This document shows positions 2,501 to 30,927 of a stretch of DNA of 35,169 nt, in pieces. The notes below the pieces were generated by a model. The model saw only the letters and a program-made list of their open reading frames with translations. It was not told the origin of the DNA and ran no database searches. Positions within the stretch are counted from its first letter, which is position 1. Each line of letters starts with the position of its first letter. The stretch is from an uncultured Treponema sp. Lineage in GTDB: Bacteria; Spirochaetota; Spirochaetia; Treponematales; Treponemataceae. Made by a program: the position numbers and the translations under genes. The stretch covers positions 1 to 35,169 of the forward strand of contig CAMEET010000015.1 of NCBI GenBank assembly GCA_945915085.1, written 5' to 3'.

Positions 2501-2557
2501 ATCTGAATAATAAATCAAGTTAAAGAAGACTCTCGACGGTTTTGTTTTGTTTAAATA

Positions 2558-2595
2558 GGGACAGACCTTGCGTGTGAAAACAGGGACAGACCTTG
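2558..2595 (-). repeat. Two direct copies of the AGGTCTGTCCC motif (complement orientation)
   Basis: GGGACAGACCTTG occurs at 2558-2570 and again at 2583-2595, 25 bases apart in the same orientation, in the 263-bp gap between cls and the flavin reductase gene. The remainder of that gap (2596-2763) shows no gene that I could support. Confidence 0.8.
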
Positions 2596-9182: not shown

Positions 9183-9270
9183 TTATGCCTCAAGATAATA
9201 AAATATAACAAAAGTTGATGTGTTGGTCAAACACCAAAAAATATTGTGCATTGTGTAAAAATTTTTAATC

Positions 9271-9354
9271 AAGGTCTGTCCCTGTCTCGTGATTAAATTT
9301 AGCCACTCCCTTGTTCGTTAAGTTAGCACTAGCCGTGAGTTTTGGTAAAAATTG
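9271..9354 (+). repeat. Degenerate or half copy of the paired-hairpin element
   Basis: AGGTCTGTCCC at 9272-9282 is followed by CTGTCTCGTG, as in the element at 14801, then by a diverged segment that keeps fragments such as GTTCGTTAAG and CCGTGAGTTTT. The closing second motif copy is not visible. It abuts the end of feoB. Confidence 0.5.
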
Positions 9355-14780: not shown

Positions 14781-14800
14781 TCATCCGACAAAATAAAGCA

Positions 14801-14911
14801 AGGACTGTCCCTGTCTCGTGCTGTCAATTCATCAACCAACATGAATTCAGTTTGCACGAGCCTCGTGTTTTTTAACGATTCGTTAAACTTGTGAAAATGA
14901 GGTCTGTCCCC
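14801..14911 (+). repeat. Paired-hairpin element A, bounded by two AGGTCTGTCCC-type motifs
   Basis: AGGACTGTCCC (14801-14811) and AGGTCTGTCCCC (14900-14911) bracket two inverted repeats. The first is CTCGTGC (14815-14821) with GCACGAG (14854-14860), enclosing AATTCAT and ATGAATT around a CAACCAAC loop. The second is TTTAACG with CGTTAAA around ATT. The same order of parts occurs at 16677-16798. It fills the gap between the esterase and the bidirectional terminator. Confidence 0.75.
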
Positions 14912-14934
14912 AGTTTAAAAAAATCATTTTATAT

Positions 14935-14976
14935 AAAAAAGGCCACCCCCTAAAAAATGAGGGCAGCCTTTTTTTT
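14935..14976. terminator. Bidirectional terminator between convergent genes
   Basis: AAAAAAGGC then CCCCT (14935-14951) faces AGGG then GCC and eight T (14960-14976), with a single mismatch bulge in the stem. T-runs follow the stem on both strands, so it can end both the rightward esterase transcript and the leftward glycosidase; the latter's stop codon overlaps it. Confidence 0.75.
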
Positions 14977-16447
14977 AATCATCGTAATGTTTAAAAAGTG
15001 CAACAGGTTCCTGTTCAATTCTGATTTCTGGAAGTTCAGGCAAAACTGCATATGAGTTTGTGAGCCAATCACCGTCTTTTGTAGCGTATGGGTCAGTTCC
15101 ATCTTCAGGATGATTCAAACCGTCCTTTGGAGGACAGAAAAATCTCAGCTTCATATCGGCAGGTTTTTCCAAAGAATTTTCAAAGAAATAACTCATTAAA
15201 TCAACACATTTTACACCAGGAGCTTTGTAGAACCAGTATCCGCCAAATTCCATCATAATATTAGCATCTTCAAGTTCATCTTTGAAATAAACCTCAAAAA
15301 ACGAAGGAGTTTTGTCAAAATGAACAGTTGTTTCAACACCTTCCGCATCTTCTGAGCCACCCCAACGAAGTTTTACAGGAAATGAAACTTCCTCTTTTGT
15401 TTCAATAGGATGAGTAAAAAATGATTTATGAAGTTCCTGTTTGTACATTTTCAAAATCGGCTGTTCAATTCCAACATCATTATTATTCGGATTTGTGATT
15501 TCCAGTCCAAGACGACCATCATCACGGAATTGATACAAAGTGAATGCCGAAAGCCATCTATCTTCATCCTTCTGCAAAAGTTCCATAAAATGCTTCATCA
15601 TATTTGACTGTTCAAAAGCACCAGTAACATCGCCATCTCCATTCAATTCAGAAAGAACCATTGGTTTATCCTGACCAGTGATTTCTTTTAACCGCAGATA
15701 TGTATTTTTTGCTTTTTCATAAACAGCATCTACATCATAACATGCGTAATTACTGTTTTCCTTTGTTGCAACATCAACAGGCCAGCCCCAGTGAAGTGAA
15801 AGATACTGATCCCCAGACCAAATGTCAGCCTTTTTGTGAGCTTCCAAAAAGATTTCTTCCATTTCAAGTTTTCCAGTTTCCTTTTGCCACATACCTGCAC
15901 ACAAAATCACTTTTACGTTTGGCGCATACTCATGCATAACATCACACACAAGACAGAAAAAATCTGCAAGTTGCTGATAAGAAGCACGTTTGTTGAAACA
16001 GAACCAGGAACCAGTACATTCGTGATTTACTCGAAGCAGAATTCTTCCATAAGGACGCAGATCCTGCGCAACTTGAATTACTTCCTCTTTCGTCAAAGCA
16101 GGATCCATTGTGAGAGTAAGAACAACATCCTGACCGCGCTGGCGAATTTCTTTCATAAAACAGAAAGGTTCATCATTTCGCAAACCTTCTTTTCCGCCAC
16201 GATAAGGAAAATAATCTTCGTAAGGATAATCCCACGCACCAGTTGGAGTTTCCTGTTTGTGAACAATACTTGCACGTCCAGGCCATCCTTTATCATTAGG
16301 ATAATAAGTATACATCAAACTGATACCGCGGTGAATTTTTCCCATTTTTTGCAGGATATAATCCTGATTTACATAAAGACCACGTTCGCTTCCGTCTCCC
16401 ATATCCAAAGCACAACCAGGAGATTTCAATAAAACTTTATTTGCCAT
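14975..16447 (-). CDS. GH26-like glycoside hydrolase, cytoplasmic
   Basis: A 490-aa protein without a signal peptide. The first 340 residues look like a clan GH-A barrel. The likely acid/base is Glu143 in LLRVNHECTGSWF, which resembles the HE-x-x-G-x-WF motif of GH26, and the likely nucleophile is Glu267 in MVLSELNGDG at the expected later strand. The last 130 residues form a beta-rich domain with many aromatic residues, possibly binding carbohydrate. GH26 enzymes mostly cleave beta-mannan or mixed glucans; the substrate here is not known. The ATG has GAGG seven bases upstream and a possible TATACT box lies further upstream near 16490. It converges on the CE2-like esterase gene. Confidence 0.6.
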   Translation of the reverse strand: MANKVLLKSPGCALDMGDGSERGLYVNQDYILQKMGKIHRGISLMYTYYPNDKGWPGRASIVHKQETPTGAWDYPYEDYFPYRGGKEGLRNDEPFCFMKEIRQRGQDVVLTLTMDPALTKEEVIQVAQDLRPYGRILLRVNHECTGSWFCFNKRASYQQLADFFCLVCDVMHEYAPNVKVILCAGMWQKETGKLEMEEIFLEAHKKADIWSGDQYLSLHWGWPVDVATKENSNYACYDVDAVYEKAKNTYLRLKEITGQDKPMVLSELNGDGDVTGAFEQSNMMKHFMELLQKDEDRWLSAFTLYQFRDDGRLGLEITNPNNNDVGIEQPILKMYKQELHKSFFTHPIETKEEVSFPVKLRWGGSEDAEGVETTVHFDKTPSFFEVYFKDELEDANIMMEFGGYWFYKAPGVKCVDLMSYFFENSLEKPADMKLRFFCPPKDGLNHPEDGTDPYATKDGDWLTNSYAVLPELPEIRIEQEPVALFKHYDD

Positions 16448-16540
16448 AAAATCCTCATAAATTTATTATTTTTTTATAGTATAAACTATTTTAGCGGGAT
16501 TTCAAGATTTTTTAGTTGAATAATTATTTGAATAATTATT

Positions 16541-16662
16541 TGGGCGAGCCCCTCCATTTCATTACGGGTCGGGCTTTGCGCACTTCCGCTGTCGCTTCAT
16601 TCCTTCGCTGCGCTTCGGAACGCCTTCGGCGGTGCTCCAATCCCTCTCGCAGTTTTCCATAA
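16541..16662. repeat. GC-rich hairpin-bearing intergenic element
   Basis: This element contains CGCC-TTC-GGCG at 16621-16631 followed by GTGCTCC, which on the minus strand is GGAGCACC then CGCC, a GAA loop and GGCG. That matches the elements near 6.6 and 29.7 kb but with a different stem sequence. Other words (gcgcactt, gcttcgg) are also shared. The 415-bp gap 16448-16862 holds only this, the next repeat and promoter sequences. Confidence 0.65.
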
Positions 16663-16676
16663 AATCAATAAAATCA

Positions 16677-16798
16677 AGGTCTGTCCTTGGCTCGTGCTGC
16701 AAATTTACTCACCAACAAAAATTTCGTTTGCACGAGCCTCGAGTTTTTTAACGCTTCGCTAAAACTCGTAAAATTGAGGCTCAATCAAGGTCTGTCCC
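16677..16798 (+). repeat. Paired-hairpin element B, bounded by two AGGTCTGTCC motifs
   Basis: AGGTCTGTCC (16677-16686) and AGGTCTGTCCC (16788-16798) enclose the same parts as element A: CTCGTGC with GCACGAG, an inner AAATTT pair around a loop containing CACCAAC, then CGAGTTTT with AAAACTCG. A further fragment, TGAGGCTC, sits just before the right motif and may be a decayed copy. The arms differ from element A but still pair. Confidence 0.75.
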
Positions 16799-20624: not shown

Positions 20625-20667
20625 ATCTTTCCTCAATTTAAACTTTGTTGTCTAATTCGACTCCCAT

Positions 20668-20850
20668 AAAAAGTCAAGAAGATTGTTTCAACAATCGATT
20701 GACTTTTTACGCTGTTCCGTAATGTAATGAGGAACAGCAGTTAAATAATAAGTTTGCAACGCAAACTTTAGGTAAGATAAATCCGCGCTATTTTAGCGGT
20801 TTTATCTTACTCTCCTTTTTTCCACAAATAAGACAGTTTTTAAAACTGTC
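20668..20850 (-). other. Run of five hairpins between AICAR transformylase and metY
   Basis: Five inverted repeats occur in succession. Plus-strand coordinates: AAAAAGTCAA 20668 with TTGACTTTTT 20708, containing GATTGTT/AACAATC; CTGTTCC 20712 with GGAACAG 20737; AAGTTTGC 20750 with GCAAACTT 20768; TAAGATAAA plus CCGC 20773 with GCGG plus TTTATCTTA 20809; GACAGTTTT 20832 with AAAACTGTC 20850. The leftmost is followed on the minus strand by T-rich sequence and could terminate or attenuate transcription before metY; the rightmost could end purH. The others are unexplained. Confidence 0.7.
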
Positions 20851-22235: not shown

Positions 22236-22263
22236 CTGGCGAACTTTTTCCGCTTAATCTTCA

Positions 22264-22477
22264 AGGTCTGTCCCCAATTGTTTACAGCTGTGTTTAAAAG
22301 GGGGACAGACCTCAATTGATAAGCAAAACTATTCCTGCATTTTGGCATACAAAGCAAGGTCTGTCCCCCTTTTTTTAATACACGAGCAAGGGAGAGTCCT
22401 TGTTTTACATAATGCTTTGTTTTCAAGGTTTGTCCCTCTTTTCACCGCTAAACATCGTAAAAACGAGGTCTGTCCCC
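22264..22477. repeat. Cluster of five AGGTCTGTCCC-type motifs
   Basis: Copies are at 22264-22275 (plus), 22301-22312 (minus), 22357-22368 (plus), 22426-22436 (plus, AGGTTTGTCCC) and 22466-22477 (plus). The first two are perfect 12-bp inverted copies with a 25-nt loop. The segment from 22381 has pieces (CACGAG, GCTAAACATCGTAAAAACGAGG) that recall the paired-hairpin element in damaged form. Confidence 0.8.
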
Positions 22478-30578: not shown

Positions 30579-30722
30579 GTTCCTCAAAATCATAAACTTG
30601 AGAAAGTATCAACTTTCGAAAGTTTATGATTTGTCCGCGCCAAGCGGACAGTCAAATAAAAGAGTTTCGCAAGAAACTCGAAGATTATTCAAATGGCGCA
30701 ATATTAGCCATTTGAATAATAC
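30579..30722. repeat. 144-nt four-hairpin unit, copy 1
   Basis: Inverted repeats in order: AATCATAAACTT (30588-30599) with AAGTTTATGATT (30620-30631), enclosing GAAAGT/ACTTTC; GTCCGC with GCGGAC; GAGTTTC-GCAA-GAAACTC; and TTATTCAAATGGC with GCCATTTGAATAA. The next copy starts directly after it. Confidence 0.85.
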
Positions 30723-30866
30723 GTTCCTCAAAATCATAAACTTGAAGAAAGTTTGAACTTTCGAAAGTTTATGATTAGTCCGCGCGAAGCGGACAGTAAA
30801 TAAAGAAGTTTCGTAAGAAACTCTAAGATTATTCAAATGGCGCAATTTCAGCCATTTGAATAATAC
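30723..30866. repeat. 144-nt four-hairpin unit, copy 2
   Basis: This has the same length and order of hairpins as copy 1. Differences fall mostly in loops: ATCA becomes TTGA in the first, GCC-AA becomes GCG-AA in the second, GCAA becomes GTAA in the third, and ATATTA becomes ATTTCA in the fourth. It ends about 60 bases before the flavodoxin-like gene. Confidence 0.85.
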
Positions 30867-30927
30867 CTTTAATTTTGTTGATGTGGTATGGTGCAAACAT
30901 TATTGGTTTGAAAAGTGAGGTATGTAA

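Follow-up and report, generated by a model that had tools for sequence, protein, structure and literature searches.

The 35,169-nt window analysed here (contig C15; the Treponema MAG to which it belongs, referred to as G000, is 2.37 Mb in size) carries copies of a two-hairpin repeat unit that is real, present in high copy number and selected for its structure. The unit is probably a non-autonomous, BIME-like member of the repeat population of a Y1 transposase of the TIRYT / subclass 2.1 type, by which it would be mobilised. Each unit has the plan AAGGTCTGTCCC–TG–hairpin 1–hairpin 2–linker–AAGGTCTGTCCC, is about 100–150 nt long and is found singly or in head-to-tail arrays. Hairpin 1 combines an outer stem of 9 bp with an AT-rich inner part and the loop ACCAA. 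Hairpin 2 has the build CGAGTTTT..AACGCTTCGCT..AAAACTCG, and both short and long forms of it occur among the copies.

The features found in the window are listed in Table 1. Copies A (14800-14911) and B (16676-16798), which the initial annotation had described as two elements of the same plan, are both present as described and are 79% identical across 104 nt, with the parts in the same order. In both copies the border motifs are AAGGTCTGTCCC with 0-1 changes, the second border motif has the same orientation as the first, and the spacer between the two hairpins is one base. The match of covariance model R1 in copy A (14812-14893) scored 70.4 bits, and copy B was the top-scoring match of the genome with 104.3 bits. 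Hairpin 1 of copy B has the inner stem AAATTT/AAATTT and the loop CACCAAC, and the loop of its hairpin 2 corresponds on the minus strand to the DNA mini-hairpin GCGAAGC. The half copy reported earlier at 9271-9354 is real, consisting of a motif, a degenerate hairpin 1 and the truncated hairpin 2-like GTGAGTTTTGG. As for the debris reported at 22381-22477, motif copies and short hairpin remnants were found there, so this part of the observation is weaker. REPIN-like inverted motif pairs were observed in the window (22263-22313) and at locus L031 (1354-1394), where the pair lies just upstream of the transposase gene. In addition, two direct repeats of ~144 nt, each with long palindromes (ATTATTCAAATGGCGCAAT..AGCCATTTGAATAAT), are present at 30601-30869 of the window.

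Table 1. Positions of unit parts, unit remnants and motif copies in the window.
Feature	Positions	Strand	Description
Copy A, 5' border motif	14800..14811	+	AAGGACTGTCCC, one mismatch to AAGGTCTGTCCC
Copy A, hairpin 1	14813..14862	+	outer stem GTCTCGTGC / GCACGAGCC; AT-rich inner stem; ACCAAC apical loop
Copy A, hairpin 2	14864..14893	+	CGTGTTTTTTAACG ATT CGTTAAACTTGTG
Copy A, 3' border motif	14899..14911	+	GAGGTCTGTCCCC; 6-nt linker class
Copy B, 5' border motif	16676..16687	+	AAGGTCTGTCCT
Copy B, hairpin 1	16689..16738	+	outer stem GGCTCGTGC (16689-16697) / GCACGAGCC (16730-16738)
Copy B, hairpin 2	16740..16768	+	CGAGTTTT..AACGCTTCGCT..AAAACTCG
Copy B, 3' border motif	16787..16798	+	AAGGTCTGTCCC; ~17-nt linker class
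Degenerate half copy	9271..9354	+	motif, decayed hairpin 1, truncated hairpin 2-like GTGAGTTTTGG
Motif-only inverted pair	22263..22313	.	GGTCTGTCCCC ... GGGGACAGACC; REPIN-like palindrome lacking the hairpin pair
Debris	22355..22477	+	three motif copies and short element remnants
Two motif-only copies	2557..2595	-	direct orientation

The abundance of the element is well beyond chance. The sequence AAGGTCTGTCC has 189 exact copies in the genome vs 6 for a reversed-pattern control, and a DNA search of G000 gave 40 matches, while a covariance model trained on 25 copies gave 92 matches at E<=0.01. The sister species G157 and G184 (89-90% DNA identity) gave at least 150 and 91 model matches, respectively. 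In the genus sample of 98 genomes, 17 matches passed strict filters in G009, one strong copy each was found in G001 and G080, and a few other genomes had weak matches only. Some gut/rumen-type Treponema genomes have about a hundred or more unit copies, present both as single copies and as head-to-tail arrays with a unit length of ~114-150 nt. Nearly all classifiable sites (47/51) were intergenic, i.e., outside ORFs of at least 100 aa, and the flanking-gene context was mixed (18 divergent, 22 co-directional and 7 convergent). Orientation bias relative to GC skew was absent (24/48), indicating no sign of an IS608-type lagging-strand preference, and a lagging-strand bias was rejected on this ratio. 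An exact pattern search of viral contigs gave zero matches. A known RNA family was rejected since the window is without an Rfam match.

The strong covariation of the unit is located in the hairpin 1 outer stem and in hairpin 2. In a sequence-only MAFFT alignment, two-sided changes were observed at 5/13 predicted pairs, and double-change cells numbered 25 for the named structure vs 8.3±2.4 after shuffling. When the covariation check proposed in the initial annotation was run on a larger set with the covariance model, 120 distinct copies (125 matches) had two-sided changes at 22/26 pairs vs 12.6±1.3 shuffled and 196 double-change cells vs 84±8 shuffled, a value reached by 0/500 shuffles, and slid controls gave 9-67 cells; this alignment is fitted to the covariance model and hence biased towards it. 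The hairpin 1 outer stem occurs in the variants GGCTCGTGC, GGCACGTGC, GCATGTGC, GCAGGTGC, GCCTCGTGC, GGCTCGCGC and GGCTCGTTT, each with a matching partner. The list of its arm pairs, which is independent of any score, includes GGCTCGTGC/GCACGAGCC, GGCACGTGC/GCACGTGCC, TGCATGTGC/GCACATGCT, GGCAGGTGC/GCACCTGCT, GCCTCGTGC/GCACGAGGC, GGCTCGCGC/GCGCGAGCC, GGCTTGTGC/GCACAAGCC, GGCTCGTTT/AAACGAGCC and GGTACGTGC/GCACGTACC.

An own-versus-swapped test was also performed, in which each 5' arm was matched either to the 3' arm of the same copy or to that of a different one; like the shuffle tests, it permutes among related copies and is not a phylogenetic null. The hairpin 1 outer stem gave z = -17.5, with clustering at 90, 80 and 70% identity lowering it to -13.9, -10.5 and -6.2 in magnitude, respectively, and hairpin 2 gave z = -8.5 (-5.5 and -2.8 after clustering). 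These paired changes across copies indicate selection on the folded shape itself. The excess of double-change cells together with the outer-stem z supports the earlier suggestion that structure is selected for, either in RNA or in single-stranded DNA. The example on which that suggestion was based, the inner-stem change from AATTCAT/ATGAATT to AAATTT/AAATTT, is visible between copies A and B, but across 121 copies the own arms of the hairpin 1 inner stem pair no better than swapped ones (z 0.1), so the example is unsupported as a general feature. Inner-stem covariation was rejected as the main evidence, the own-versus-swapped test being not significant.

The loops of hairpin 2 favour a structure that acts as single-stranded DNA rather than RNA, as a matter of weight and not of proof. 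It is known that d(GCGAAGC) forms an extraordinarily stable DNA mini-hairpin, and d(cGNAg) and d(cGNNAg) are the rule for stable DNA loops. Among distinct copies, the bottom-strand triloops of hairpin 2 were GNA in 59/65, and the tetraloops were GNNA in 11/11 with only 1/11 being GNRA; it is this occurrence of GNA and GNNA loops on the bottom strand that favours single-stranded DNA over RNA. In folding with DNA parameters, the bottom strand was the more stable one in 78/83 cases, with a mean gain of only 0.7 kcal/mol.

The gene associated with the motif encodes a domesticated Y1 (HuH) transposase of the TIRYT/TnpA-Y1 subclass 2.1 type. TIRtrons and TIRYT transposases were described by Di Nocera et al. 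(2013, PMC3733652); TnpA-Y1 subclass 2.1 (Quentin et al., 2018, PMC6006769) is considered equivalent to TIRYT. Members of this subclass are ~240 aa long with a C-terminal HTH and inverted repeats containing GGGGWSAS (PMC6006769, PMC3733652), and REP-like secondary structures were reported to be absent near their genes (PMC6006769). G000 has a single Y1_Tnp gene (match span C2:28315-28650), and motif copies are found to either side of it. Its Y1_Tnp domain (PF01797, E 2.9e-18) has the HuH and Y---NP motifs of TIRYT / subclass 2.1, conserved here as NHIH and YILQNP. The predicted fold of the G184 homologue (79% identical) had a pLDDT of 88, and the closest solved fold to this model in Foldseek was 4ER8, E. 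coli TnpA-REP with a bound REP hairpin (E 2.6e-6, prob 1.00); a sequence-only search of the PDB gave zero relatives, this one emerging by fold only. Relatives of the gene are found in Treponema (76-78% identity) and in Firmicutes (about 32-51%), and related GTCC-containing repeats surround many of the Firmicutes genes inspected. In G000, G157, G184 and others, the gene is flanked by inverted motif copies, with GGGACAGACC upstream and GGTCTGTCCC downstream, and the GGGGWSAS sequence of the subclass is represented in these flanking repeats by GGGACAGACC/GGGGACAG. For the C-terminal HTH of the subclass (Bac_DnaA_C, HTH_23 or HTH_28), the Treponema proteins gave zero Pfam HTH matches, while the homologue L066 has an HTH_23 match at 5e-5 over the aligned region; GxxIxQISRxT is conserved, and the predicted model has helices.

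The unit and the transposase gene are connected by the motif. An upstream motif at <=2 mismatches was found for 31 copies and precisely abuts hairpin 1 in all 31, and 51/68 copies have a motif at <=2 mismatches within 45 nt downstream, whereas control 15-mers reached <=2 mismatches in 0/1360. The gene was detected at E<=1e-10 in 11/98 sampled genus genomes. At least 8 copies of AGGTCTGTCCC are present in 9 genomes, all 9 of which have the gene, while the gene is present in 2/89 others (Fisher p = 3.5e-11, for genomes that are not independent), and gene-free genomes have at most 6 copies of AGGTCTGTCCC. G157 and G184 also possess the gene, as do all four genomes with at least 17 hairpin units. 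No hairpin unit lies beside any transposase gene; the genes are flanked by the motif alone, the closest approach of a unit being about 4 kb, in G184. Among the 11 sampled gene-bearing genomes, 9 are without a strong unit, and in G001 and G080, with one unit copy each, the gene is absent. From the shared motif and the co-occurrence, we infer movement of the units by the transposase. This link and the tandem-array behaviour are additions to what the initial annotation had observed.

Differences in unit number were observed between the sister species. At an orthologous site with flanks ~96% identical (G000:C6, G157:C68 and G184:C28), 1, 2 and 4 units are present, respectively, and units were gained or lost whole, from motif to motif. 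The half copy of the window is missing in G157, where the orthologous interval is 11 nt vs ~130 nt in the window. Window site A has different elements in G157, elements also differ between close relatives at the 9219-9349 site, and the region beyond window site B is not syntenic; the other elements at site A and the non-synteny past site B give no clean target-site reading, and the boundaries of single insertions are defined less finely than one base. Nested units were seen at L143 and L330 (G000:C143 and G157:C158), where a TGCATGTGC-type unit contains a GGCTCGTGC-type unit with AGGTCTGTCCCTGCATGTGCC repeated at either side of the latter, an arrangement that looks like the entry of one unit into another's 5' arm. 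In G009, C74 and C97 (L222 3929-4170 and L223 5930-6249) have motif-only arrays without the hairpin pair, with a period of 38-40 nt and a repeat of GAGGTCTGTCCCC plus an AT-rich spacer.

If the units belong to the transposase, a unit would fold when its strand is exposed during replication or repair, and the transposase would recognise the folded hairpins and/or the motif, cleave at or beside the motif, and rejoin the cleaved unit at another motif copy. Insertion beside an existing motif would produce head-to-tail arrays, which may then lengthen or shorten through ordinary recombination or slippage; the differences in array length could come from recombination or slippage alone.

The system resembles TIRtrons/TIRYT in having a Y1/HuH protein (~250 aa) that carries the NHxH and YxxxNP motifs and a putative C-terminal HTH-like region, in the inverted repeats with GGGGWSAS flanking the gene (here GGGGACAG) and in the few gene copies. 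Unlike subclass 2.1 as described (PMC6006769), the motif here borders many structured two-hairpin units in tandem arrays, and these units, despite sharing the subclass 2.1 motif, do not lie beside the transposase gene. The units share with the REP/BIME/REPIN sequences of TnpA-REP groups 2 and 3 (E. coli, Pseudomonas) high-copy, mostly intergenic palindromes folding as single-stranded DNA hairpins (92 matches, 47/51 sites, covariation), one linked Y1 transposase gene and frequent tandem clusters. Unlike REP/BIME, the hairpin units do not flank the cognate transposase gene, the GTAG/GTGG tetranucleotide is absent from both hairpin feet, with GTCCCTG preceding hairpin 1, the two hairpins are dissimilar, and a 12-nt motif in direct repeat bounds the unit. 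The ends of IS200/IS605 elements (IS608, ISDra2) and their non-autonomous derivatives likewise have two single-stranded DNA hairpins, a Y1 transposase fold and insertion beside a short fixed sequence, the last of which would apply to the units too; in contrast, the hairpins here are adjacent with no cargo or ORF between them, the transposase gene is outside the element, and the orientation bias of the IS608 type is missing. Integron attC arrays are also tandem folded single-stranded DNA repeats, but inspection of units and arrays did not reveal RYYYAAC/GTTRRRY core sites at the stem ends, and the units of 100-150 nt have no cassette ORFs between repeats.

As a tentative possibility, the units may form a self-standing class of repeat folded as single-stranded DNA that uses TIRYT-type motif sites and multiplies both by dispersal and as head-to-tail arrays. 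As a substrate, such a class would be either the first structured one known for the Y1 proteins of subclass 2.1 or that of another single-stranded DNA recombinase. It is rather unlikely that another enzyme acting on single-stranded DNA moves the hairpin pair as a mobile unit in its own right, one that carries or targets the transposase motif only through a preference for motif sites as landing places. Hairpin pairs without the motif do exist (G000:C45, C16:9651 and G080), they are absent near transposase genes, and two gene-free genomes have one copy each; however, many units have the motif at a fixed 5' distance and most also at the 3' side, all four high-copy genomes have the transposase, and no alternative enzyme was found. 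A duplicated host-beneficial structured site, either protein-binding or an RNA element (terminator, attenuator or nucleoid site), would explain the strong structural constraint and the conserved ACCAA loop of hairpin 1, but is improbable, as sites differ between close relatives (window site A, 9219-9349), the GNNA loops are mostly not GNRA and an Rfam match is absent. The mixed gene context (18, 22 and 7 as above) with few convergent sites is also ill-suited to a terminator role, which was rejected.

Derivation of the unit from the RNA region of a diversity-generating retroelement (DGR) is suggested by two genomes. The sole unit of G080 (C20 ~156185-157903; L172/L193) adjoins a DGR template repeat directly on its downstream side, with a reverse transcriptase present, and the sole unit of G001 (C4 ~57909; L173) is retained beside DGR remnants; at these loci, a 29-aa hydrophobic toxin-like ORF separates the unit from the reverse-transcriptase side. 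This origin is nevertheless very improbable, since G000 and G009 are without a reverse transcriptase match, on which ground a DGR component was rejected as the general explanation, and another DGR of G001 is without the element. Least credible is that the copies are mere decaying debris, free of selection, whose pairing goes back to a small number of founder sequences. Some copies are indeed truncated or degenerate, but the outer stems are highly varied and show matched changes at 8/9 pairs, and the own-versus-swapped result persists after clustering at 70% identity; the enlarged set of copies thus already speaks against this reading.

Subclass 2.1 of the domesticated Y1 transposases is large and widespread, and the published surveys considered here did not find folded repeats near its genes. 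In the genus Treponema, covarying hairpin units number in the hundreds and have the motif of a subclass 2.1 gene at their borders, and with the copy-number differences between sister species, binding, cleavage and movement become directly testable. A second multi-hairpin repeat of ~158 nt with four hairpins was observed at 20660-20818 of the window. In G157/G184 its copies exceed 40, with identities of about 80-98%, and in G009 (L197) it is located directly upstream of a Y1 transposase gene.
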